Below are positions 2 through 10,112 of a DNA stretch of 15,083 nucleotides, piece after piece. Numbering within the stretch: position 1 is the stretch's first letter; each line of letters starts with the position of its first letter. A model generated the notes under the pieces. That model saw only the letters and a program-made list of their open reading frames with translations. It was not told where the DNA came from and did not search any database. A program made the translations under genes and the position numbers. The stretch spans positions 1-15,083 of the forward strand of contig CAMTBF010000025.1 of NCBI GenBank assembly GCA_947068385.1, written 5' to 3'. Source of the DNA: an uncultured Lachnospiraceae bacterium (GTDB lineage: Bacteria; Bacillota; Clostridia; Lachnospirales; Lachnospiraceae).

Positions 2-631
2 TATATGAACAAGTATGGTTTGATATGGTGTTTTATACAGGGAGGCGGAAATGGAAATGTTAACACTGTAACATTGACATACAAAGAGCAGGAAAGCACT
101 GATGAGGCAACTGTCAAGACTTATGTAATCGGTGCTGACGATGCGGATGGAAATGGTACGATTACTAAGGTAGATGCTAGCAATGGGAATGCCCCTTTGG
201 AAGGCGTTGGGTTTACCTTGACAAATGAGGAGGGTGAGTATGCGACCCTTGCTTCTAATAGTATCAGGTTCAACGGCTGGAGCACTAGTGAAGCTAAAAT
301 TTACACTGATGCAGAGGGCGAAATCCATGTAGAAGGCCTGGATGCTGGCACATACACGCTGACTGAGACGGATCCGCTTCCTGGATACAATGCCTTGTAC
401 TACACTATTACAGTAACGATTGCAGAAGATGGTACGGTGACTTACCTTGCCTCCAACGCAGCGGCGGGAACCGTACCTTCTGAGAGCATTGATATTGAGA
501 ACAGCACCGGTACCATCCTCCCCTCCACCGGCGGCATCGGTACCACAATCTTCTACGTGGTAGGCGGCATCCTGGTAGTAGCGGCAGGCGTCCTGCTGAT
601 CACCAAGAAGCGCATGGGCGGACGCGACTAA
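2..631 (+). CDS. LPSTG-anchored CnaB-type pilin/surface protein, 5' partial
   Basis: This is the C-terminal part of a sortase-anchored surface protein, probably a pilus backbone or adhesin subunit. The frame is open to the left edge, so the ATG at 5 is probably internal. Numbering from that ATG, residues ~50-166 form a SpaA/CnaB-type domain. It has a pilin-like Lys in ITKVDASNG (Lys55), an E-box Glu in YTLTETDPLPGYN (Glu121) and an Asn in IDIENSTG (Asn166), which together suggest a Lys-Asn isopeptide bond. The sorting signal is LPSTG (172-176), a hydrophobic stretch (~180-200) and the basic tail KKR. The ten residues before IQGGGNGN do not look like the usual pilin D2 strand, so the upstream part may be divergent or rearranged. 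Base composition changes inside the gene: low G+C to about base 480, then G+C rich through the sorting signal. The class C sortase 305 bases downstream is the likely polymerase. Family call is firm; the precise pilus role is inferred. Confidence 0.85.
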   Translation, partial: YMNKYGLIWCFIQGGGNGNVNTVTLTYKEQESTDEATVKTYVIGADDADGNGTITKVDASNGNAPLEGVGFTLTNEEGEYATLASNSIRFNGWSTSEAKIYTDAEGEIHVEGLDAGTYTLTETDPLPGYNALYYTITVTIAEDGTVTYLASNAAAGTVPSESIDIENSTGTILPSTGGIGTTIFYVVGGILVVAAGVLLITKKRMGGRD

Positions 632-738
632 TCGGCAAAGGCTGATTCACCACATGCGGAGAGCATGAGGTAGGCGCACCGCGCCAAGGCGAAAGCCCAC
701 AGAACCAAAACCGACAAAAAAGCTCCATAACAGAAAAC

Positions 739-774
739 CTTCCGGGGCAGGGAGACCTCCGAACGCCCCGGAGG
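739..774 (+). promoter_or_regulatory. strong stem-loop in the pilin-sortase spacer
   Basis: Bases 739-748 pair with 765-774 over ten positions, all Watson-Crick except one T-G pair, with the core CCGGGGC/GCCCCGG. The loop (749-764) can itself form a small GGA/TCC stem. No T-run follows, so it is more likely an mRNA stabiliser, processing site or part of a structured leader than an intrinsic terminator. Confidence 0.5.
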
Positions 775-776
775 AT

Positions 777-844
777 GCCGCACAGATGCTGACACCTTCC
801 CGTGGTGTGCGGCGAGCAACGGATCCGCCGCAGGGGATGCGGCG
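777..844 (+). promoter_or_regulatory. candidate switch: four segments with mutually exclusive pairings
   Basis: Segment 1 (777-784, GCCGCACA) is perfectly complementary to segment 2 (806-813, TGTGCGGC). Segment 2 (808-814) is also complementary to segment 3 (826-832, CGCCGCA). Segment 3 pairs perfectly with segment 4 (838-844, TGCGGCG) around a five-base GGGGA loop. Pairings 1:2 with 3:4 and the single 2:3 pairing exclude each other, as in attenuators and some riboswitches. No T-run and no clear leader peptide are seen, so an output by termination is not supported. Confidence 0.4.
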
Positions 845-936
845 ATGCTCCGGCGAAGCTCAGCAGGGCCCGCGGAAGGCCTCCTTCCGGGGCAGCAATC
901 CAGACATGATGCAGGAGACGACTGACGGGGAAGACG

Positions 937-1845
937 ATGAAGAAAGAAAAGAACCGGAAGGCGGGGAGGAAGAAGGGCTCCCTCTCCACCATCCTACTGA
1001 CGGTGGTCCTGCTGGCAGGGCTGGGCGTCATGCTCTACCCAACGGTCAGCGACTACTGGAACTCCCTCCACCAGACCCGGGCCATCGCCAACTATGACGC
1101 GGTGGTGGCGGAGCTGGACGAGACGGACTACGAAGCCCTCTTCGCTGCGGCGGAGGAATATAATGTGAAGCTCCGGGAGCTGGGGGCTCCCTACTCGGAA
1201 CATGAACGGCTGGAGGAGCTGTACTACAGCGTCCTGGACGTGGCCGGGAACGGCATCATCGGGTACATCTCCATCCCGAAGATCGACGTGAACCTGCCCG
1301 TCTACCACGGCACCAGCGATGCGGTGCTGAACGTGGCGGCGGGGCACCTGGAGGGCTCCAGCCTCCCTATAGGCGGGGAGGGCAGGCACAGCGTGCTGTC
1401 GGCCCACAGGGGGCTGCCCTCGGCGAAGCTCTTCACGGACCTGGACCGGATGGAGAAGGGGGACATCTTCACCATCACGGTGCTGAACCGGACATTGACA
1501 TACGAGGTGGATCAGATTCTGATCGTGGAGCCCACCCAGATGGAGGCGCTGAGCGTCACGGCGGGAAAGGACTACTGCACCCTGCTGACCTGCACGCCCT
1601 ATGGGATCAACAGCCACCGGATGTTCGTGCGGGGGCACAGGATCGACAACATCGAGGAAGAGGAGCTCATCATAGTGGCCGCGGAGGCCCGGAAGATTCC
1701 TTCCTATTATGTGATACCTGCCGTGGGGATTCCGCTGCTGTTCGTCTCTTTGGTGGTCATGCTGACGGTCTCCGGCAGGAGGCGCGGAAGGAAGACAGGG
1801 GAGGAGCTCCTGGAGGAATTCAAGAAGGACAATGGAGATAGATAA
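937..1845 (+). CDS. srtC: class C (pilin-polymerising) sortase
   Basis: This 302-residue membrane-bound transpeptidase probably cleaves LPXTG-type pilins and joins them through a pilin lysine outside the membrane. Visible features are an N-terminal membrane segment (~17-34), the sortase barrel from about GYISIPKIDVNLPVYHG (109-125), catalytic His157 in LSAHRG, Cys219 in TLLTCTPYG, Arg228 nine residues later in SHRMFVRGHR, and a second membrane segment near the C terminus (~256-279) followed by a basic tail. This two-anchor layout and TLxTCTPYG are typical of class C. The usual lid motif DP(F/W/Y) is not seen; the corresponding region reads GAPYSE (83-88). The start has only a weak purine-rich site (GGGGAAG). 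It lies between two pilin-like genes, which are the likely substrates. Class and activity are confident; the substrate pairing is inferred. Confidence 0.93.
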   Translation: MKKEKNRKAGRKKGSLSTILLTVVLLAGLGVMLYPTVSDYWNSLHQTRAIANYDAVVAELDETDYEALFAAAEEYNVKLRELGAPYSEHERLEELYYSVLDVAGNGIIGYISIPKIDVNLPVYHGTSDAVLNVAAGHLEGSSLPIGGEGRHSVLSAHRGLPSAKLFTDLDRMEKGDIFTITVLNRTLTYEVDQILIVEPTQMEALSVTAGKDYCTLLTCTPYGINSHRMFVRGHRIDNIEEEELIIVAAEARKIPSYYVIPAVGIPLLFVSLVVMLTVSGRRRGRKTGEELLEEFKKDNGDR

Positions 1846-1872
1846 GAGTCGATATTAAAGGAGGAAACGCCC

Positions 1873-2766
1873 ATGAAAACGAAATGGAAGAGCCGCCAGC
1901 GGTTCAGGGGCCGCCTGATGGGTCTGGCGCTGGCATCCATAATGGCAGCAGGATGCGCCATGGCGGCGCTGGGTGGGACGGCCCGCGCGGCCGAGCCCCT
2001 GGATCTCTCCAGGAAATGCGCGCTGCAGGTGAAGGTGGAGCCGAAGGCCATGGAGGAAGGCGGGGAGGCGGAGTCGCCGGAGGTGGCCATAGACCTGTAC
2101 AAGGTGGCGGATGCCGTAAAGGCGGAGGGCTATGACGCCTACCGTCTTGAGACGATGGATTCCTTCGCCGCCCTGGATGTGGACATCGCCCCGGGGGAGG
2201 CGGAGGGCGCCCGGGCCTGGATAGACCAGGCGAGGCAGGCCGCGGAGATCGTCTTCGCGGAGGGGAGCGCCACAGCGCCTGCAGCCACTGCCGTGAAAGC
2301 GGAAGGGGCGGATGTGGTGGAGCTGGCTGACCTGGAGCCCGGCCTCTACCTGATGGTCCCCAGGGGGGCCGATCTGGCGCAGGCGGACTACCTCATCCGC
2401 CAGACGGAGGAAGGCGGGGAGGCGATCCAGACCATAGCCTACTCGGATTCCTATACCTTCACCTACAGCCCCCCAACTGGTGGCGCTGCCTGCCAGAGAG
2501 CGCGTGGACGGCACTGCCGCCACCTCGAATCCGGGGGAATGGATCTACGAGCTTGTGGGCATGGACGCGGCAGAGTCCAAGCCGGCCCTGAGCGGCAGGT
2601 TCGCGGCTTTGCGGATCGACAAGGAGCTGACGGAGTACCTGACGGGCAAGCCGGCCACCTTCGTCTTCACCGTGGAGGCCATGCTCCGGGACAGCCTGGT
2701 TTACAGCAATGTAGTCTCTTTGACCTTCACCGGGCCGGGGACGCAGAGCGAGCTGATTGTGGATAA
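1873..2766 (+). CDS. pilin-like protein, 5' part of a frameshifted gene (real coding to ~2474)
   Basis: A clear ribosome site (AAAGGAGG, 1857-1864, 8-base spacer) precedes this ATG. The protein starts with a basic region, a hydrophobic segment and a likely cleavage site after ARA (near residue 39). It continues with pilin-like sequence, including VAIDLYKVADAV and LEPGLYLMVPRG. At about residue 200 (YTFTYSP) it enters a C6 run (2469-2474). Beyond that the frame reads an Arg/Gly-rich sequence with no family character up to the stop at 2766, while the pilin sequence continues one frame over from 2480. Removing one C gives a single protein of 391 residues ending at 3049. This may be a pseudogene, a sequencing error, a phase-variable gene or a site of ribosomal frameshifting. 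As written, the first 200 residues are genuine and the last ~97 are out of frame. Confidence 0.7.
   Translation: MKTKWKSRQRFRGRLMGLALASIMAAGCAMAALGGTARAAEPLDLSRKCALQVKVEPKAMEEGGEAESPEVAIDLYKVADAVKAEGYDAYRLETMDSFAALDVDIAPGEAEGARAWIDQARQAAEIVFAEGSATAPAATAVKAEGADVVELADLEPGLYLMVPRGADLAQADYLIRQTEEGGEAIQTIAYSDSYTFTYSPPTGGAACQRARGRHCRHLESGGMDLRACGHGRGRVQAGPERQVRGFADRQGADGVPDGQAGHLRLHRGGHAPGQPGLQQCSLFDLHRAGDAERADCG
2469..2474 (+). other. C6 homopolymer at the frameshift
   Basis: Six consecutive C bases read AGC CCC CCA in the upstream frame. With five C bases the reading would be AGC CCC CAA CTG GTG and would run straight into the downstream pilin sequence. Homopolymer runs are prone to both sequencing error and slipped-strand change. 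A ribosomal +1 shift on the CCC proline codon is a third possibility. Confidence 0.8.
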
Positions 2767-3049
2767 GATTCCGGTGGGGGCCGTGGTGACCGTCACGGAG
2801 GCCTACTCCGGGGCCACTTACCAGGTGGCGGCGGACAGCGCCGCGGTGCAGACGGTGACCATGACTAACGCTGCTCCGGAGGACGCCGATTTCTCGAATG
2901 TGGCTTCCTTTCGGAACCTATATGATGGTTCGGGCAGACGGGGTTCGGCGATCACGAACCATTTCGAGTACGCGGACGACGGGACAGGGGCAGGGCCTGT
3001 GTGGAACTGGACACAGATTCCGGCCGGGACGCCCGGCGGGAATGAGTAA
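2480..3049 (+). CDS. FctA-like pilin domain, 3' part of the frameshifted gene
   Basis: This stretch can only start at a GTG with no ribosome site of its own, and it carries the missing C-terminal half of the gene that begins at 1873. It resembles the FctA/Spy0128-type pilin fold. Counted from the GTG it shows RIDKELTEYLTG (Lys48), FVFTVEA (61-67), TVTEAYSGATYQV with the E-box-like Glu107, and FRNLYDG with Asn146, followed by ITNHFEY (158-164). These are the residues expected for an isopeptide-stabilised domain. The protein ends GTPGGNE without an LPXTG motif or membrane segment. It could therefore be a terminal or adaptor subunit, or may have lost its anchor. If the frameshift is real it is probably not made alone. 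Confidence 0.65.
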   Translation: MALPARERVDGTAATSNPGEWIYELVGMDAAESKPALSGRFAALRIDKELTEYLTGKPATFVFTVEAMLRDSLVYSNVVSLTFTGPGTQSELIVDKIPVGAVVTVTEAYSGATYQVAADSAAVQTVTMTNAAPEDADFSNVASFRNLYDGSGRRGSAITNHFEYADDGTGAGPVWNWTQIPAGTPGGNE

Positions 3050-3063
3050 GGGGGTGGGATGAG

Positions 3064-3615
3064 ATGAAGAAAGGAAAGGTTTTTCTGACAGCCATATCCG
3101 CCCTTGCGGCAGGCACGGTCCTTACCGCCACGGCAGGGAGCGCGTGGGCCTATTTCACCACGTATACCAGCGCTTCCGGGGGCTATGCCCTGAACCTGGG
3201 GCATGAGACGGAGATCGTGGAGACTTATTCCGAGCATACCAAGCATCTGGTGGTGACCAACGAGGGGGACGGCCCCGTGTATGTACGGGCCAGGGCCTTC
3301 AGCGGCAGCCGGTATGGGCTGACCTACAGCGGGGACGGATGGCAGGCAGGCGGGGACGGATATTATTACTACAATACTATAGTGCAAGGGATTGCCGCGG
3401 CCGAGGACGGCACGGTGGTCAAATCCCAGACCAGCCAGTTGGATGTGCGGATCACGTTTCCCGAGGATGCGGAGGAGGGGGATGACTGTAACGTAGTCGT
3501 CATCTATGAGTCCCTCCCGGTACAGTATGACAGCGCCGGGAACGCTCTCGCGCCCCAGGCTGCGGACTGGTCGGCGGAGATTCTGGCCGGCAGGACGGAA
3601 GGAGGGAATGACTGA
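3064..3615 (+). CDS. TasA/camelysin-like secreted protein with SipW-type signal (183 aa)
   Basis: This small secreted protein resembles the SipW-dependent TasA/CalY family of fibre-forming or biofilm-matrix proteins. The N terminus is MKKGKVFLTAIS, a hydrophobic core (~6-27), then AGSAWAYFTTYTSASGGY. The AYFT stretch right at the expected cleavage point is the hallmark of SipW substrates (A-x-A followed by aromatic-Phe-Thr/Asn). The mature part is rich in beta-prone sequence with HLVVTNEGDGPVYVRARAF (79-97), matching the fold expected for TasA-like domains. Length is near the lower end for the family. The start follows a purine-rich GGGGTGGGATGAG. Its stop overlaps the next ATG by one base, so the two are likely translated together. 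A SipW-type peptidase is encoded about 2.6 kb downstream in the same run of genes. Family call is good; fibre formation is inferred. Confidence 0.75.
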   Translation: MKKGKVFLTAISALAAGTVLTATAGSAWAYFTTYTSASGGYALNLGHETEIVETYSEHTKHLVVTNEGDGPVYVRARAFSGSRYGLTYSGDGWQAGGDGYYYYNTIVQGIAAAEDGTVVKSQTSQLDVRITFPEDAEEGDDCNVVVIYESLPVQYDSAGNALAPQAADWSAEILAGRTEGGND

Positions 3616-4334
3616 TGAAGAAGTTGAAGAAGCTGATTGCTTCCCCCGTCACCACCATAGCCGCCTTTGCCCTGGCTGCAGGGCTGCTGCTGTTCAGCTC
3701 CATCGGCGGGGCCAGGGCGGCGCTGACCTATTTCTCGGATGATTTTGCGGCCAACATCCAGCTCCATGAGATCGGCGTCACGCTGGTGGAGAACGGCGCC
3801 CCGGTGGAGGGGGAGCTGCTGGCAGGGCTTCTGGGCGAGGGCCAGGAGCTGGAGCTGGGGGCGGCCTATCAGGAGGAGTTGGGCGTGTACAACAGCGGCA
3901 TCATCAATGAGTATGTCCGGGTCAGCATCCACAAGTACTGGGTGGATCAGGAGGGGGAGAAGATTCCCAGCCTGTCCCCGGACCTGATCGACCTGAACCT
4001 GGTGAACATAGGCGATGCCTGGCTGCTGGACGGGAGCGCCTCCACCCAGGAGCGCACCGTGCTCTATTACAGCAGGCTGCTGGACTCCCAGAGCGGGACG
4101 CCCTTGTTCGCGGATAAGCTGACCATCGACGGAAGCGTGGCCGGCAGGGTCAGCGAGACCCGTGAGACGCAGGGCAGGTACACGACCATTACCACGACCT
4201 ATGAATACGATGGGGCCCGGTTCTGCATCGAGGCCAAGGTGGACGCGGTGCAGGAGCACAACGCCCAGGACGCCATCTGGAGCGCCTGGGGCCGCAGGGT
4301 GACCATAGACAACGGCGTGCTACGCCTGAACTAG
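3615..4334 (+). CDS. second TasA-like secreted protein with SipW-type signal (239 aa)
   Basis: The ATG overlaps the preceding stop (TGATG), and AAGGAGG at 3599-3605 sits nine bases upstream. A basic start (MKKLKK), a long hydrophobic core (~10-35) and the junction GGARAALTYFSDDFAANI give a second SipW-type signal, with TYFSD matching the TasA-family mature start. The mature region contains NIQLHEIGVTLVENG and YNSGIINEYVRVSIHKYW (92-109). That pattern (a statement about the new protein's tone followed by YVRV) is usual in SipW-dependent BsaA/TasA-like proteins, where a bounded beta-sandwich is expected. No sorting signal or second membrane segment is present, so it is probably released or assembled into a fibre. 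It is larger than its neighbour and shares little with it beyond the signal, suggesting major and accessory subunits. The division of roles is inferred. Confidence 0.72.
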   Translation: MKKLKKLIASPVTTIAAFALAAGLLLFSSIGGARAALTYFSDDFAANIQLHEIGVTLVENGAPVEGELLAGLLGEGQELELGAAYQEELGVYNSGIINEYVRVSIHKYWVDQEGEKIPSLSPDLIDLNLVNIGDAWLLDGSASTQERTVLYYSRLLDSQSGTPLFADKLTIDGSVAGRVSETRETQGRYTTITTTYEYDGARFCIEAKVDAVQEHNAQDAIWSAWGRRVTIDNGVLRLN

Positions 4335-4347
4335 GAGGGGAGAGACA

Positions 4348-6180
4348 ATGAGGAAAAGATTACTGACATTCGTCCTCCTGGCAGGGATGCTCGTCTGCGC
4401 TCCGGCTGCTGCGCGGGCGGAGACGCTGTCCTCGGAGAGGAACGTGACATTCACCAGCGACAACAAGCTGTCGGAGGACCGCTCGGCGGCGGACATGAAC
4501 AGCGTGGTATACGACCTGCAGCCGGGAGACGACATCACGATTACACTAAACCTGAAAAATGATAACGCATCGGCGGCCAACTGGTACATGACCAACGAGG
4601 TGCTGCAGTCCCTGGAGGAGACCGCGGGCAGCGGGGCCAGCGGCGGCGCCTATGAATACGAGCTGGCCTACACGGATCCCGCCGGGGCCCGGGAGATTCT
4701 GTTCACCAGCGATACCGTGGGCGGCGAGAACAACAGCAGCCGCGTGGGCCTGAAGGCCGCCACCAGCGGGCTGGAGGACTTCCTGTACCTGGACACCTTA
4801 AGCCCGGGCCAGCGGGGGGTCATCACCCTGCGGGTGGCGCTGGACGGCGAGACCCAGGGCAACGACTACCAGAACACCCTGGCCAGCCTGCAGATGAACT
4901 TCGCGGTGGACACCACCACCGTGAACAACCAGACGGTGACCCGTGTGGTGGACGAGAACGGGACCCCCATTTTGGTGGACGACAGCGGCAATCCTGTAGA
5001 GGTGGACGAGGATGGCGGCAGCTCCGCCCGGACGAGGATCGTCCGCACGGGGGACGAGAACGACCTGCTGCCCTACATCGCAGCCGCCGGCGTCAGCGGC
5101 CTGCTGCTCCTGTTCCTGGCCATCCTGGGCATAAAGGAGCGGAAGAAGGCGAAGAACGCCGTGAAGGCCCTGAGCCTTGCCCTGGCGCTGAGCCTGGCCT
5201 GGGGGATGTCCGGCAGGGCACAGGCCGCGGAGGAATATACCTACACGCTGCGCCTCTACGCGGGGGCCCAGGGGACGATCGGGCCGGAGGTGGTCCAGGT
5301 GGTGAAGGGCAGCGGCGCCCAGGTGAGCATCGAGAACGGAGAGGTGTGCGTGGTCAGCGGCCTGCGGTATGACGACCAGGTCATCTTCAATATACAGGGC
5401 GGCGTGGCCCTGAACGAGGGCAGCAAGTACTACCGGAAGGGCTTCCGGATAAGCGGCGAGGACAATGCCAGCGGCAGGCTGGCCTCCCCCTCCGTGACGG
5501 TGAAGGCGGACGCGGACTACGTAGTGGCCTATGGCATACAGGGCGAGACCGTGGCCTACACGGTGGCCTATCAGGACGAGGCCGGGAACGACCTGTATCC
5601 CAGGGCGGTATACTACGGGAATGTAGGCGACAAGCCGGTGGTGGCGTACCAGTACATCGAGGGCTGGCAGCCCCAGGCCTACAACCTGGGCAAGACTTTG
5701 GTGGCGGATGCCTCCCAGAACCTGTTCACCTTCATCTATACGCCTATTCCCACGGTGGTCAATACCAATACAGTGGTGGTGCCGGGGCAGCCTGCCCCGC
5801 CCCAGGAGCCTGTGGTGGCGCCTGCACAGCCCGGGCCGGTGACGGTGGTGGAGCCCGAGGAGGAGCAGGAACCGGAGGTCGTAGAGGTGGACGAGGAAGT
5901 GCCCCCGCTGGCGGAGCCGGAGGAGTATGAGGACCTGGACGAGGAGGATACGCCCCTTGGAGGCTTCGACGGCGAAGGGGAAGGCGAAGGGAACGGCAAT
6001 GGATCCGAAGACGAGCCCGGCTGGGCCGAGACCATCCTGGACGACATAGCCACGCCCCTGGCCATGCTTCCCACACCGGCCAAGGCAGGCCTTCTGGCAG
6101 TGCTGGTGGCCCTGGCAGGGGCAGGCGTCTGGCTGATCGTGGCGGCCAGGAAGAAAGGGAAGAAGGAAGATGAGCAGTAG
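4348..6180 (+). CDS. fused surface membrane protein: TasA-locus accessory domain plus MucBP-like domain
   Basis: AGGAGGGG (4333-4340) lies seven bases before the ATG. The 610 residues look like two secreted proteins in one chain. Part A has a normal signal peptide (cleavage near ARA, residue 24), an extracellular beta-rich domain (~28-190) and an end resembling a sorting signal without its LP: VRTGDENDLLPY, a membrane segment (~242-261) and KERKK. Part B begins at once with a second signal-like segment (VKALSLALALSLAWG, 272-286, then GRAQA, 289-293), followed by a MucBP-like module (~401-466), a Pro- and Glu/Asp-rich stalk (~478-570), the motif LPTPA (574-578), a membrane segment (~579-600) and RKKGKK. 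It could anchor the fibre at the cell surface. A GTG at 5161 could start part B separately. Its last 11 bases overlap the signal peptidase gene. Domain names are tentative. Confidence 0.75.
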   Translation: MRKRLLTFVLLAGMLVCAPAAARAETLSSERNVTFTSDNKLSEDRSAADMNSVVYDLQPGDDITITLNLKNDNASAANWYMTNEVLQSLEETAGSGASGGAYEYELAYTDPAGAREILFTSDTVGGENNSSRVGLKAATSGLEDFLYLDTLSPGQRGVITLRVALDGETQGNDYQNTLASLQMNFAVDTTTVNNQTVTRVVDENGTPILVDDSGNPVEVDEDGGSSARTRIVRTGDENDLLPYIAAAGVSGLLLLFLAILGIKERKKAKNAVKALSLALALSLAWGMSGRAQAAEEYTYTLRLYAGAQGTIGPEVVQVVKGSGAQVSIENGEVCVVSGLRYDDQVIFNIQGGVALNEGSKYYRKGFRISGEDNASGRLASPSVTVKADADYVVAYGIQGETVAYTVAYQDEAGNDLYPRAVYYGNVGDKPVVAYQYIEGWQPQAYNLGKTLVADASQNLFTFIYTPIPTVVNTNTVVVPGQPAPPQEPVVAPAQPGPVTVVEPEEEQEPEVVEVDEEVPPLAEPEEYEDLDEEDTPLGGFDGEGEGEGNGNGSEDEPGWAETILDDIATPLAMLPTPAKAGLLAVLVALAGAGVWLIVAARKKGKKEDEQ

Positions 6181-6694
6181 TCCACAGGGACTGGAAGCGA
6201 ACAGGCGGGGCGGGAAGCTGGTTCCCGCCCTTTGCAACATATTCGGCACCTTGATCCTGGTGAGCGTGATCGCACTCTATCTGCCGATCACGCTGGCCCA
6301 TGCCAGGGGATATGAAGTCTACAATGTAGTCAGCGGCAGCATGGAGCCCGCGATCCCCGTGGGCAGCGTGATCTACGTGGAGACATTGCGGGCGGAGGAC
6401 GTGGCGGAGGGGGACGTGATCGCCTTCCACGGCGGGAGCTCCGTCATCGCCCACCGGGTGGTGAAGAACCGGGTGGGCGAGGGGGAGTTCATCACCAAGG
6501 GGGACGCCAACGCGGAGAACGACATGAACCCCGTGGGGTACAACGAGCTGATCGGCAGGGTGTGCCTGCACTATCCGGTGGTGGGCGCGTTCCTGGAGGT
6601 GTGCACCAGCAATGTGGGGAAGGTGTACCTGATCTGCTTCGCGGCCTGCGGGGCCATGCTGAACATGCTGGCCGGGCGGCTGCGGAGCCGGTGA
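6170..6694 (+). CDS. sipW: SipW-type signal peptidase I
   Basis: This 174-residue membrane protease removes signal peptides outside the membrane. It belongs to the SipW/ER-type group, which uses a Ser-His pair in place of the usual bacterial Ser-Lys pair. The sequence shows a membrane segment (~22-43), VVSGSMEP with catalytic Ser57, IAHRVV with His95, and TKGDAN with Asp112. A second hydrophobic segment follows at ~150-168, near the C terminus. SipW enzymes are normally encoded next to TasA-like substrates, and two such proteins are encoded upstream here. The start codon lies inside the last codons of the preceding gene (11-base overlap), with GAAGGAAG upstream, so translation is probably coupled. 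Its place within the operon indicates a dedicated peptidase and not the housekeeping one. Confidence is high. Confidence 0.93.
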   Translation: MSSSPQGLEANRRGGKLVPALCNIFGTLILVSVIALYLPITLAHARGYEVYNVVSGSMEPAIPVGSVIYVETLRAEDVAEGDVIAFHGGSSVIAHRVVKNRVGEGEFITKGDANAENDMNPVGYNELIGRVCLHYPVVGAFLEVCTSNVGKVYLICFAACGAMLNMLAGRLRSR

Positions 6695-6791
6695 GGGCGG
6701 GGAGCGGCCAGACGGGCTGCTGCAGCCTGCCGGGAGGAAGGGCAGGAGCAGGATGGCGGGGACGGGACAGAGAGGAAAGGAGTGCATCGGG

Positions 6792-7481
6792 ATGGGAGCG
6801 GAGCCGGGTAACGGAAAGGGTAGGCGGATTGCCCTGAAGGACTGGGTGGGGCGCACCTTCGGGAGCCTGACGGTGGTGGCCTATGACGGCAGGCGGGGCG
6901 GGAAGCACTACTGGCGCTGCAGGTGCCTCTGCGGCGGCAGCGCGGTGGTGAGCCAGTCCAACCTGCAGGCGGGGCACACGAAGAGCTGCGGCTGCCTGTC
7001 GGATCCGGCGGGGACCCGGCACTTCGTGGAGGGGACCTGCATCGAGAGCATCCGCAGCCGCCGGGTGTCCGCCAGCAACCAGAGCGGCATCCGTGGGGTC
7101 TACAGGAACCGCAGGACGGGCCGCTGGGCGGCGCAGATCACCTTCCAGGGGAGGACGCGCTACCTGGGCAGCTTCGACAGCCTGGAGGAGGCGGCCCGGG
7201 CCCGGGAGGAGGCGGAGCAGGTCTTCGACGAGTTCCTGGAGCGGCACGGCGATGCCGGGAAGGAGGCCGCCGCCGTGGGCGGGGCGAGGCCGGGCATGCC
7301 ATCTGCGGGGATGCCTGGCGGGCGGCAGGGGAAAGCGGAGCCCCGGCCGGAACCAGCCGGGGCTGTGCAGCCTCAGCCAAGCGGAGGGGCCATGCCCGCC
7401 CATGCGGCGGAGGGCGGCATGGGACATCCGCGGAAGGAGGCCGCTCTGGCGGCGGGAGGCGCGTATGGGCAGGAGGCTTAG
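6792..7481 (+). CDS. zinc-ribbon plus AP2-domain protein with low-complexity tail
   Basis: I chose the ATG at 6792 because AAAGGAG (6776-6782) lies nine bases upstream. An in-frame ATG at 6753 would add 13 residues of no evident character. The 229-residue protein has an N-terminal segment (DWVGRTFGSLTVV) and a Cys cluster WRCRCLCGG...KSCGC (Cys 43, 45, 47, 66, 68) that likely binds zinc. These are followed by an AP2/ERF-like DNA-binding domain at ~98-150 (SGIRGVYRNRRTGRWAAQI, YLGSFDSLEEAARARE). In bacteria this arrangement is common in phage- and homing-endonuclease-related proteins and small regulators; no HNH nuclease motif is visible here. The last ~65 residues are a Gly/Pro/Ala-rich tail whose end overlaps the sortase gene by 17 bases. 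It may be a locus regulator or a mobile-element relic. Domain call is good; the role is unknown. Confidence 0.75.
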   Translation: MGAEPGNGKGRRIALKDWVGRTFGSLTVVAYDGRRGGKHYWRCRCLCGGSAVVSQSNLQAGHTKSCGCLSDPAGTRHFVEGTCIESIRSRRVSASNQSGIRGVYRNRRTGRWAAQITFQGRTRYLGSFDSLEEAARAREEAEQVFDEFLERHGDAGKEAAAVGGARPGMPSAGMPGGRQGKAEPRPEPAGAVQPQPSGGAMPAHAAEGGMGHPRKEAALAAGGAYGQEA

Positions 7482-8364
7482 GCGCGCCCTGGCGGCCGTG
7501 CTGGGGGCGGTGTTCCTCTTCTCCGTCTGCTACATCGTCGTGGCCCGGCTGGAGTACAGGGCCAGCGCCCGGCGCTACGACGAGGCCGCGGCCCGGTTCA
7601 CCAGCCAGGCTGCCGCGGGCGGCCTGGGGGAGGCGTCCCCGTCCGGAGGGGCCGGGGCGGACGGCCTCGGCGGTTCGGGGAGCGGCACAGCGGGGCAGGG
7701 CGGCCCTTCCGCCGACAGCCCGCCCCTGGCGGTGGACTTCGACGGCCTGCGGGCCGTCAACGGCGACGTCTGCGGCTGGCTGTACTGCCCGGACACGCCC
7801 ATCGACTACCCCGTGCTGCGGGGGGAGGACAACGACGCCTACCTGCACCACGCCTACGACGGCAGCTACAGCGCAGGGGGCTCCCTCTTCGTGGAGTCCC
7901 TGAACCGCCCGGGCTTCGCGGACGCCAACACCATCGTCTACGGCCACCACATGCGGGACGGATCCATGTTCGCCTGCCTGGAGCGGTGGGCGGAGCCGGG
8001 GTTCTACGAGGCCCATCCCGCGATGTGGCTGCTGACCCCGGAGGGCGACTACAGGATTGACATATTCGCGGGCTACACCACCTCCGGCTACTCGGACACC
8101 TATACCATCTATACGGAGGGCTGCCCAGAGCTGACGGAGTACTTGTGGAGGTGCCAGGAGCAGTCGGACTTTACGTCAGGGACAGAGCCGGATGACGGCG
8201 GGCGGTACATAACTCTGTCCACCTGCGCCTACGCCTTCACAGATGCCAGGTACGTGCTCCACGGCAGGTTGGTGCCCGTGGGAGATGCCGCGGGAAGCGG
8301 CGCGGGAGCGGCTGCTTTGGCCGGGCAGGACAGAGGGCAGCGGCCGGAGGCGGCAGAGAATTAG
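7465..8364 (+). CDS. srtB: class B sortase
   Basis: This 299-residue membrane-anchored cysteine transpeptidase is of the SrtB type. The ATG at 7465 has GGGAGG five bases upstream and gives a normal N-terminal anchor (residues ~8-28). A flexible Gly/Ser-rich linker (~50-86) precedes the catalytic domain. Typical class B features follow: CGWLYCPDTPIDYPVLRG (103-120), DNDAYLHHAYDGSYSAGGSL (122-141), catalytic His161 in VYGHHM, Cys254 in TLSTC and Arg262 eight residues later. Class B enzymes usually recognise NPQTN- or (S/P)PXTG-like signals. No such signal is obvious nearby, so its target may be the LPSTG pilin, the LPTPA end of the fused membrane protein, or a protein encoded elsewhere. The gene overlaps the AP2 gene by 17 bases and is followed eight bases later by the regulator. 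Family call is firm; substrate unknown. Confidence 0.92.
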   Translation: MGRRLRRALAAVLGAVFLFSVCYIVVARLEYRASARRYDEAAARFTSQAAAGGLGEASPSGGAGADGLGGSGSGTAGQGGPSADSPPLAVDFDGLRAVNGDVCGWLYCPDTPIDYPVLRGEDNDAYLHHAYDGSYSAGGSLFVESLNRPGFADANTIVYGHHMRDGSMFACLERWAEPGFYEAHPAMWLLTPEGDYRIDIFAGYTTSGYSDTYTIYTEGCPELTEYLWRCQEQSDFTSGTEPDDGGRYITLSTCAYAFTDARYVLHGRLVPVGDAAGSGAGAAALAGQDRGQRPEAAEN

Positions 8365-8372
8365 GGGGGAGC

Positions 8373-9623
8373 ATGGAAAAGAGAGAGGAAGGCGGGGAAG
8401 TCCCCTGCCTGCGGGTGCAGATGTTCGGAGGATTCTCCTTATCCTGGGGCGGAAGGCTGGTGGCCGGGAGCAGGAAGACCAGCGAGTCCCAGTTCAACTA
8501 TCTGATGCAGCTTCTGCTGCACCACCGGCAGGAGGGCGTCAGCCGGGACATGCTGGAGCGGGTGCTCTTCGAGGACAGGGACATCCTGGACGTGCACCAC
8601 GCGGCCAGGAGCGTGATATACAATGCGAAGAGGCGTCTGAGGGCGGCGGGGCTGCCGGACGTGAACTACATCGAGCAGAGGAAGGGCATGTGCTGCTGGA
8701 CGGCCCAGGTGCCGGTGGAGGAGGACGCGGCCCGGTTCGACAGGCTCTGCCGGGCGGCGGAGGAGGCCGGAGACCCCCGGGAGCAGCTTGGGCTGTACCT
8801 GGAGGCCTGCCGGGCCTATACCGGGGAGTTCCTGCCCCAGCAGGCGGCGGTCTTCTGGGTGGCCCAGGAGGCCAGGCGGTACAGGGGCCTGTTCTGCCGC
8901 TGCATGGAGAGGGCGGTGGGGCTGCTGCGGGCCAGCCAGGACTTCCCGCAGATGGAGGAGCTGGGCCGGTACGCCGCGGCCATCAGCCCCCTGTCGGACT
9001 GGGAGACGGTCATCATGGAGGCCCTGGTGGCCATGGGCCGCTACGAGGAGGCCAGGAGGCTCTACAACGACACGGTGGATTTCTATTTCCAGGAGCAGGG
9101 CCTGCGGCCCTCCCGGCGGATGATGGAGCTCTTCAACAGGCTGGGCACCCAGATGGAGCACAGGCAGGACGCCCTGGACGACATCCAGCAGAAGCTGTCG
9201 GAGGGCCAGGAGAACGGGACGGGAGGGTATCTCTGCGCCTATCCCGTATTCCAGGGCATCTACCGCATGGTGGAGCGGATGATGGAGCGGGGTGGCCAGT
9301 CCGTGTACCTGATGCTGTGCATGGTGGTGGACAGCAAGGGCAACCCCATGCGGGACGGGCAGATGCTGGAGGAGCTTACAGGGCGGCTGGAGGAGGCCCT
9401 GCGGAGCTCCGTGCGGCACAGCGATGCCATCAGCAGGTACGGCAAGGGCCAGTACCTGGTGCTTTTGATGAACACTACCAGGGAGAACTGCGATGTGATC
9501 CAGAAGCGCATCAGCTGCCGTTTCCTGATAGGGAGGCAGCGCACGGGGATCCAGTATTATGTGAACAGCGTCATCTGCCCTCCGGACAAGGGCAGGGCGC
9601 TCATGGACAAAGGCAGGGGATAG
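8373..9623 (+). CDS. SARP/BTAD-family regulator with degenerate GGDEF-like C-terminal domain
   Basis: This 416-residue cytoplasmic protein is a likely transcriptional activator. Residues ~12-110 fit an OmpR-like winged helix (LRVQMFGGFSLSWGG at the start, then SVIYNAKRRLR at ~80-90). Residues ~115-262 fit a bacterial transcriptional activator (BTAD) helical-repeat domain, with YTGEFLP (149-155) and an EEARRLYNDTVDFY segment (225-238). The C-terminal part (~285-402) resembles a GGDEF fold: hydrophobic strand VYLMLCMVVD, then HSDAISRYGKGQYLVLL, where GKGQY (357-361) stands in place of the GGDEF active motif. It should therefore lack cyclase activity and could bind a nucleotide or act as a scaffold. 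The gene follows the class B sortase by eight bases and precedes an unrecognised gene by three. It is the obvious candidate to control the fibre operon, but that is inferred from position. Confidence 0.82.
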   Translation: MEKREEGGEVPCLRVQMFGGFSLSWGGRLVAGSRKTSESQFNYLMQLLLHHRQEGVSRDMLERVLFEDRDILDVHHAARSVIYNAKRRLRAAGLPDVNYIEQRKGMCCWTAQVPVEEDAARFDRLCRAAEEAGDPREQLGLYLEACRAYTGEFLPQQAAVFWVAQEARRYRGLFCRCMERAVGLLRASQDFPQMEELGRYAAAISPLSDWETVIMEALVAMGRYEEARRLYNDTVDFYFQEQGLRPSRRMMELFNRLGTQMEHRQDALDDIQQKLSEGQENGTGGYLCAYPVFQGIYRMVERMMERGGQSVYLMLCMVVDSKGNPMRDGQMLEELTGRLEEALRSSVRHSDAISRYGKGQYLVLLMNTTRENCDVIQKRISCRFLIGRQRTGIQYYVNSVICPPDKGRALMDKGRG

Positions 9624-9626
9624 CGG

Positions 9627-10112
9627 ATGGACAGGTCTCAATGGTATCTGGGGGCGCCCAACGGCGTGGTGCTGTGCATCGACCAGGCCCGGGACGGGCA
9701 GCTGAAGGGCAGGTTCTACCATGCCTATGAGAGGGAGGCGGTGTGCTTCTCTACGATAGAGGAGGCGATGTTCGGGCTGGAGCAGCTCTATGACTCCCTG
9801 AACTTCCCGCATCCCACCACGGACAGCCGCACCTTCGACAAAGGGGAGCGGCAGACAGAAATCAGACAGGAAAGGACGAGGGTCATGAAAGACGAGGAAT
9901 TGCTGGGCAGACACGGGGAACTGGGGACGTTCATCATCCGCGTGCAGCACCGCCAGAACAGCAGCTGGCAGGGGAGGATCACCTGGATGGACCAGAACAG
10001 GACAGTCTACTTCCGCTCTATCTGGGAGATGATTAAGCTGGTGGAGGGGGCCCTGGACACCGTCAGCCAACAGGAGGACGGCCCGCAGGGCTCCTGGACG
10101 GAGGAAGAATAA
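9627..10112 (+). CDS. unrecognised 161-aa protein with an apparent internal duplication
   Basis: I recognise no characterised family. The protein has no signal peptide or membrane segment. Two halves look related: GRFYHAYEREAVCFSTIEEA (28-47) followed by MFGLEQLYDSL, and GRITWMDQNRTVYFRSIWEM (116-135) followed by IKLVEGALDTV. Each reads as a Gly-Arg strand, a second strand ending in a Phe-Ser/Phe-Arg turn, and an amphipathic helix. The halves are joined by a charged linker (~65-90) rich in Arg, Lys and Glu. It begins three bases after the regulator gene (AGGGGATAGCGG upstream), so it is probably co-translated with it and could be a partner or anti-activator. That proposal rests only on position. 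A likely promoter for the next gene lies at its 3' end. Confidence 0.75.
   Translation: MDRSQWYLGAPNGVVLCIDQARDGQLKGRFYHAYEREAVCFSTIEEAMFGLEQLYDSLNFPHPTTDSRTFDKGERQTEIRQERTRVMKDEELLGRHGELGTFIIRVQHRQNSSWQGRITWMDQNRTVYFRSIWEMIKLVEGALDTVSQQEDGPQGSWTEEE

Follow-up and report, generated by a model that had tools for sequence, protein, structure and literature searches.

A run of surface-fiber genes in an uncultured Lachnospiraceae bacterium brings together the parts of a sortase pilus and of a SipW-dependent, TasA-like fiber, and it probably encodes one composite surface fiber. The run lies in a 15,083-nucleotide stretch (hereafter the window), which is the whole of contig C25 (CAMTBF010000025.1) of a 3.78 Mb draft genome (GCA_947068385.1) that is 89.5% complete. 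A preliminary description of this DNA had listed an LPSTG pilin (P), a class C sortase (SrtC), an FctA-like pilin (F), two proteins with SipW-type signals (TasA1 and TasA2), a fused membrane protein, a SipW-type peptidase (SipW), an AP2 protein, a class B sortase (SrtB), and a SARP regulator. All of these genes were found, every one on the plus strand (Table 1), and the observation of a combined gene run is confirmed. On our reading of the locus, F would seat the pilus on a TasA-like stalk. On comparative evidence alone, such a composite fiber is better supported than two independent fibers.

Gene order was conserved among relatives of the window: backbone pilin P, SrtC, F, TasA1, TasA2, two secreted proteins that we call N and c, SipW, and sometimes SrtB and the SARP regulator. 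A TasA2 profile scan of contigs from one genome per species (84,980 species) gave 263 relatives, and we annotated 79 loci from the best 80 of these, selected by TasA2 similarity. Loci at contig edges were scored as misses in the tally of these loci, and the profiles were partly built from loci later annotated with them. Most loci came from Lachnospiraceae and its genera, some from Oscillospiraceae, and one from an Eggerthellaceae metagenome-assembled genome; Faecalicatena orotica (L125) and Acutalibacter sp. (L100) were among the scan records. All six core genes (F to SipW), with SrtC upstream of TasA2, were present in 69 of the 79 loci. Counted singly, SrtC was found in 73, F in 77, TasA1, N, and c in 78 each, and SipW in 73; among other members, a SpaA-type pilin was found in 66, the SARP regulator in 36, SrtB in 33, and the AP2 protein in 2. 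SrtC lay upstream of TasA2 on the same strand in 72 of the 79. The source genome itself had six TasA2 matches; most of the run recurred in the same order on its contigs C224, C171, C155, and C261, while C268 and C6 held only run ends that may belong to other contigs. Since the same order recurs in the fetched loci and on other contigs of the same genome, we do not consider the gene run a product of chance.

The converse test covered 138 genomes of the genus and a neighborhood of 6 kb on either side. SrtC was found within this distance of 38 out of 41 strong TasA2 places, and TasA2 within it of 44 out of 53 SrtC matches above cut-off. TasA2 matches entered this tally down to about E 1e-20, split ones without their second halves, and three SrtC fragments below cut-off (G019, G000:C386, and G129) were accepted as SrtC only in the count that started from TasA2. 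The pilin/SrtC and TasA/SipW blocks, whose co-occurrence the preliminary description had proposed as a check, are thus linked in both the 79 loci and the genus. The distribution of TasA2 was patchy, with matches in 22 of the 138 genomes in the genus, 27 of 392 in the order, and 4 of 398 in a sample of the phylum, the last count including the source genome and three weak matches.

Spacing and sequence distances place SrtC with the TasA and SipW genes. Median gaps were short or near zero from SrtC onward (SrtC-F, 29.5 bp; F-TasA1, 14 bp; TasA1-TasA2, -1 bp; TasA2-N, 13 bp; N-c, 1 bp; c-SipW, -4 bp; SipW-SrtB, 16 bp), whereas the gap between P and SrtC had a median of 172 bp and was 60 bp or less in 3 of 70 loci. 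A consensus scan found no plus-strand terminator between P and SrtC. The tight operon begins at SrtC, which therefore belongs to the TasA/SipW side, and what had been described as two blocks is one. Among 75 loci with all seven genes, SrtC distances correlated with those of SipW (Mantel r 0.63), TasA2 (0.54), TasA1, N, and F, all in the range of 0.54 to 0.63; values for the pairs tested inside the TasA block were 0.53 to 0.72 (TasA2 versus SipW, 0.53). P correlated with SrtC at 0.59 (45 loci), but with F, TasA2, and SipW at only 0.40 to 0.46. In view of the spacing, the distance comparison, and the 79-locus tally, it is very improbable that the blocks adjoin by chance or through genomic-island spread with no functional link. 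Such an origin would fit the several copies in the genome and their identical stretches beside diverged ones, but order is kept, with operon-like spacing, across loci whose median pairwise SrtC identity is 53%.

The first genes of the run belong to a sortase pilus. P carries a SpaA domain (Pfam SpaA, 62.5 bits, E 4e-17) and an LPXTG-type signal, LPSTG (Gram_pos_anchor, 25.6 bits), and SrtC scored 274.3 bits against the class C sortase model NF033745 (cut-off 160). The 5' end of P is cut by the contig start, so any tip-adhesin gene would lie outside the window; relatives with enough sequence have a large LPXTG protein upstream of the backbone. Among 48 P relatives, chosen by a length of 480 to 760 residues and an LPSTGG end, one lysine was invariant in all 48. 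A motif like WxxxVxVYPK was found in none of 90 backbone or tip proteins.

F follows SrtC and occurs in two forms, the D1 form, which carries an N-terminal part (D1) ahead of the DUF5979 isopeptide-type domain and is the usual one with SrtC, and a long form. The window copy is broken into two open reading frames (ORFs; 1873-2766 and 2480-3049), while intact copies are present in the same genome and in relatives. The break lies near a run of C (2460-2500) and could be either an assembly error or real. DUF5979 was matched in the window (E 4e-9) and in 55 of 55 aligned relatives. Among 123 F proteins adjoining TasA1 (with L106 counted as D1), none had an LPXTG-like tail, so F, the sole base candidate tested, is not a base pilin with its own sorting signal. 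For the same reason, a classic FctA pilin is ruled out: the gene named in the preliminary description is there, but its product is not itself a sortase-sorted pilin. A C-terminal transmembrane segment with an LPXTG-like motif was seen in 3 of 91 F-profile hits, all outside the set of 123 and none being the F that adjoins TasA1. Two of these (L040 and L119; 639 residues, LPSTG tails) lie further upstream, and at the third (L116; 481 residues) another F adjoins TasA1.

D1-form F proteins share an invariant lysine resembling that of a pilin motif (111 of 111, and the window), about 14 residues before an isopeptide-type lysine. In 31 of 55 it stands within W-x-Y-(4 to 6)-L-K-(P/S), which resembles the consensus of the sortase acceptor motif, WxxxVxVYPK. 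The isopeptide-type lysine, glutamate, and second asparagine were invariant in both forms of F, and the first asparagine was present in 110 of 111 D1 and 11 of 11 long copies. In known pili, according to the portions of the sources consulted, the pilin-motif lysine accepts the chain and a base pilin terminates it (PMC5817068, PMC11389406). If a subunit accepts a chain at such a lysine but lacks a sorting signal, as F does, it would be able only to terminate that chain.

In one genus, long-form F proteins join the F domain to what appear to be relatives of tip adhesins. Their open frames span 829 to 1555 residues, with the F match confined to the C-terminal domain. The genus of genome G254 had F in 26 of 29 genomes; of its 46 places in total, eight had open frames above 800 residues. 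All eight matched LPXTG tip adhesins of SrtC cassettes in the same genus (best hit of each, 546 to 852 columns at 33% to 46% identity), and all eight ended in the F C-terminal domain instead of LPXTG and were followed by TasA1, TasA2, N, and c. For the long F of G254 and that of G294, the neighboring cassette on the contig encodes a matching tip adhesin, which has LPETGG or LPKTGG at its end. The long-F cassettes of this genus had no SrtC upstream in the stretches examined, with SrtC in neighboring cassettes. The F profile scored 76 to 109 bits on the 11 long F proteins and less than 15 bits on all 99 LPXTG proteins above 700 residues, in none of which the F C-terminal domain was found; this control indicates that the shared end domain is that of F and rules out the tip adhesins' own end domain as its source. 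Two scanned tip proteins had DUF7601/DUF5979 matches of their own, near the end in L062 and internally in L041. Three long F proteins (L041, L180, and L181) had other N-terminal parts, comprising Cna_B repeats or LRR_5 and VWA domains; L041 had one short tip-adhesin match, and L180 and L181 had none. The putative adhesin type thus appears in two settings: at the tip of a pilus, or continuous with the domain encoded just ahead of the TasA genes. We regard this as gene-fusion evidence for F as the place where the end of the pilus joins the TasA block.

The two forms also differed in what lies upstream. For this comparison, we merged identical TasA1 peptides, omitted loci with less than 6.5 kb upstream and no SrtC, and classed the window F apart as 'other'. 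D1 loci had SrtC upstream in 96 of 107 cases and an LPXTG protein in 91 of 107, and both were absent upstream of all three long-F loci that had 6.5 kb or more of sequence there. Two more long-F loci had less upstream room, namely L041, whose further stretch was also without either, and L181. The putative acceptor lysine was aligned in 1 of 11 long F proteins, at the alignment edge.

These patterns bear on a different arrangement, in which a single operon yields a sortase pilus and a TasA-like fiber as two separate structures made together, with F assisting the TasA fiber in the manner of TapA and its lysine serving a structural role. We consider this somewhat unlikely, although both kinds of fiber are known to work alone and some loci weigh on its side and against a composite. 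In the genus, 9 of 53 SrtC matches (two at contig starts) had no TasA2 within 6 kb, and at L173-L176, which are distant TasA/SipW loci, the profiles found no SrtC or F; pilus and TasA parts can therefore occur apart. However, co-regulation alone would hardly explain either the fusions of the F domain to tip adhesins or a lysine that never varies in the D1 form, the usual partner of SrtC, and is nearly gone in the long form. The fusions and the lysine lead us to favor a composite fiber. The preliminary description, which had suggested one composite fiber or two coordinated ones built with two sortase classes, holds as to linkage and to the presence of both classes in the window, but SrtB proved optional. 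L173, L174, and L176 also carried N and a SARP regulator, and L173-L175 had SpaA-type hits; these loci are possibly relatives of an ancestral fiber block.

TasA1 and TasA2 resemble known fiber subunits at a distance. Against TIGR04090 (BsaA; cut-off 60 bits), the window copies scored 16 and 22.6 bits, respectively, neither reaching the family threshold, and at E 0.01 the model matched 42 of 62 members of the TasA1 family and 41 of 49 of the TasA2 family. An hhalign comparison related TasA2 to TasA1 with 96% probability. Pfam at E 0.1 gave nothing for TasA2; for TasA1 its sole match, to a herpesvirus family, was below cut-off and looks like chance. The AlphaFold model of TasA1 had a pLDDT of 83, with residues 28-43 below 50; a fold search with it returned generic beta sandwiches, with TasA not among the matches listed, and a sequence search of solved structures with the TasA1, TasA2, F, and N profiles gave nothing significant. 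TasA2 has more than 1000 relatives, the best 120 of which, where a name was shown, were named only 'hypothetical protein'. If TasA1 and TasA2 did not polymerize, the locus could encode a single adhesin-display complex in which they form a short, wall-bound collar holding F. The BsaA scores below cut-off and the absence of TasA from the listed fold matches fit such a collar, which we nevertheless think improbable: the N-terminus of the TasA1 model is predicted to be unordered, as would fit donor-strand exchange, and BsaA itself, in the part of the source consulted, forms polymers (PMC7395162).

Beyond the TasA genes, the 'fused membrane protein' of the preliminary description exists as an ORF, but it consists of two secreted proteins, N and c, which are separate genes in most loci examined. 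Seven N entries were fused (the window, L029, L030, L048, L049, L050, and L083), each with an internal sortase-like signal that in the window is followed by a second signal-peptide-like stretch, and the fused product may be cut in two after export. The C-terminal signal of N is sortase-like and of the form V(K/R)TGD, and all 87 N-bearing ORFs had a C-terminal transmembrane segment, which in a fused ORF refers to the end of the fusion. VKTGD and VRTGD were the leading motifs both in loci with SrtB (36) and in those without (52), with no clear difference between the groups. The sortase-B target model TIGR03063 matched 5 of 48 N relatives at E 0.01 and did not match the window N.

SipW scored 92.8 bits against TIGR02228 (cut-off 51.85), identifying it as a SipW-type peptidase, and 69 bits against the Bacillus SipW model, below its cut-off of 190. 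In one relative, an additional match to a SipW-like signal peptidase lay between SrtC and F (L037:8022-8534). SrtB scored as a class B sortase (TIGR03064, 169.7 bits; cut-off 153.75). The SARP regulator matched BTAD (37.9 bits; cut-off 22.1), and its C-terminus was GGDEF-like at 18.8 bits, below the cut-off of 23.8. The AP2 protein (Pfam AP2, 34.3 bits; cut-off 33.3) was confined to close relatives and paralogues and falls outside the conserved set.

Table 1. Features of the gene run, with positions in the window.
Feature	Position	Strand	Basis
P: SpaA-type backbone pilin, 3' part, LPSTG sorting signal	2..631	+	Pfam SpaA, Gram_pos_anchor
P-SrtC gap, sole long gap of the run, RNA-structured	632..936	+	spacing, fold z -2.8
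SrtC: class C (pilus) sortase	937..1845	+	NF033745
F: secreted acceptor-type pilin (putative), D1 + DUF5979, frame broken	1873..3049	+	ORFs, Pfam, paralogues
Codon of invariant D1-type F lysine (K239 in L048 protein)	2579..2581	+	position in the window, alignment
TasA1: SipW-type signal AYFTTY, BsaA/TasA-like (weak profile match)	3064..3615	+	TIGR04090
TasA2: SipW-type signal ALTYFS, BsaA-like (weak profile match)	3615..4334	+	TIGR04090, hhalign
Fused ORF, N + c	4348..6180	+	comparison with separate genes in relatives
N half: secreted beta-rich protein, sortase-like C-terminal signal	4348..about 5163	+	separate gene in most loci
VRTGD motif, sortase-like signal of N	5041..5055	+	position in the window; motif tallies and tails in relatives
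c half: second signal-peptide-like stretch, extracellular part, C-terminal transmembrane segment	about 5200..6180	+	separate gene in most loci, alignment
SipW-type signal peptidase	6170..6694	+	TIGR02228
AP2-domain protein	6753..7481	+	Pfam AP2
SrtB: class B sortase	about 7465..8364	+	TIGR03064
SARP/BTAD regulator, weak GGDEF-like C-terminus	8373..9623	+	BTAD, GGDEF models

Taken in order, the genes for tip, P, F, TasA1, TasA2, and N follow the proposed order of the fiber from tip to wall. In the composite fiber that we favor, SrtC would join the tip adhesin, encoded outside the contig, and backbone P as usual, and the F lysine would receive the SrtC-bound chain and terminate the polymer. Having no sorting signal, F would hand the chain no further, and its C-terminal isopeptide-type domain would dock on a stalk of SipW-processed TasA1 and TasA2. 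N would anchor this stalk in the cell wall, with SrtB or another sortase acting on its V(K/R)TGD-type signal, and c would remain in the membrane. We see about an even chance that the product is a two-material fiber of this kind, in which a covalent sortase pilus stopped by an acceptor-only F is coupled to a TasA-like stalk that is non-covalent, depends on SipW, and is anchored by a sortase of its own. Its head would be interchangeable, since an adhesin also occurs joined directly to the F coupling domain, with no pilus in between.

Parts of this locus resemble several described systems. Like Spa-type pili, it has a class C sortase, an LPXTG backbone, and, in relatives, a large LPXTG protein upstream. 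Known sortase pili have a base pilin that ends the chain, as described in the part of the source consulted (PMC11389406), whereas here F, the candidate base, lacks a sorting signal and is followed in the run by TasA-like and SipW genes. The tapA-sipW-tasA operon of B. subtilis shares the dedicated SipW-type peptidase, SipW-type signals, and small beta proteins, and its TasA assembles by donor-strand exchange according to the text available from two sources (PMC9674648, PMC10151520); what sets the present locus apart is its pair of TasA-like proteins, its N protein, which bears a sortase-like signal, and the presence of a sortase pilus in the run. The nearest described locus appears to be sipW-bsaABCRSD of C. 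perfringens, with SipW, BsaA-like subunits, and a neighboring srtB. In the sections consulted, that source does not mention SrtC, an LPXTG pilin, or F, and it reports that deletion of srtB, which lies beside sipW, left BsaA polymers unchanged (PMC7395162). The TasA/CalY/CapP system of B. cereus likewise has two TasA-type subunits and a cell-wall helper, but its source, as far as consulted, describes it as sortase-independent (PMC13082335). Within the portions of open-licence literature that we consulted, no description of such a combined locus was found.

We also note some features of genome context. Relative to the locus on C224 (L029) of the same genome, the window was 100% identical at about 4636-5135 (N half) and 6124-6623 (end of c and SipW), and 56% to 80% identical in 250-base steps from SrtC to TasA1; this mosaic could have arisen by gene conversion among the copies, or because the draft genome combines more than one strain. 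In one genus, two or three cassettes stood in tandem (L167-L168, L208-L209, and L210). The array L167-L168 has a single SipW and a single SrtB at its end, which are perhaps common to its cassettes. Scans of the window for tRNA and Rfam families gave no matches. Seven promoter-like sites (shuffled sequences, 3.3, SD 1.7) and ten terminator-like sites (6.8, SD 2.7) were counted and not used as evidence.

Sortase pili and TasA-type fibers have been treated as separate inventions; here they are joined in one locus, which some gut genomes carry in several copies. Joining them would amount to a novel means of terminating, anchoring, and exchanging pili. It would also point to functions for F, N, and c, and the proposal is specific as to a single lysine of F. 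More speculatively, such fibers may have a bearing on how these bacteria hold to mucus or to each other.

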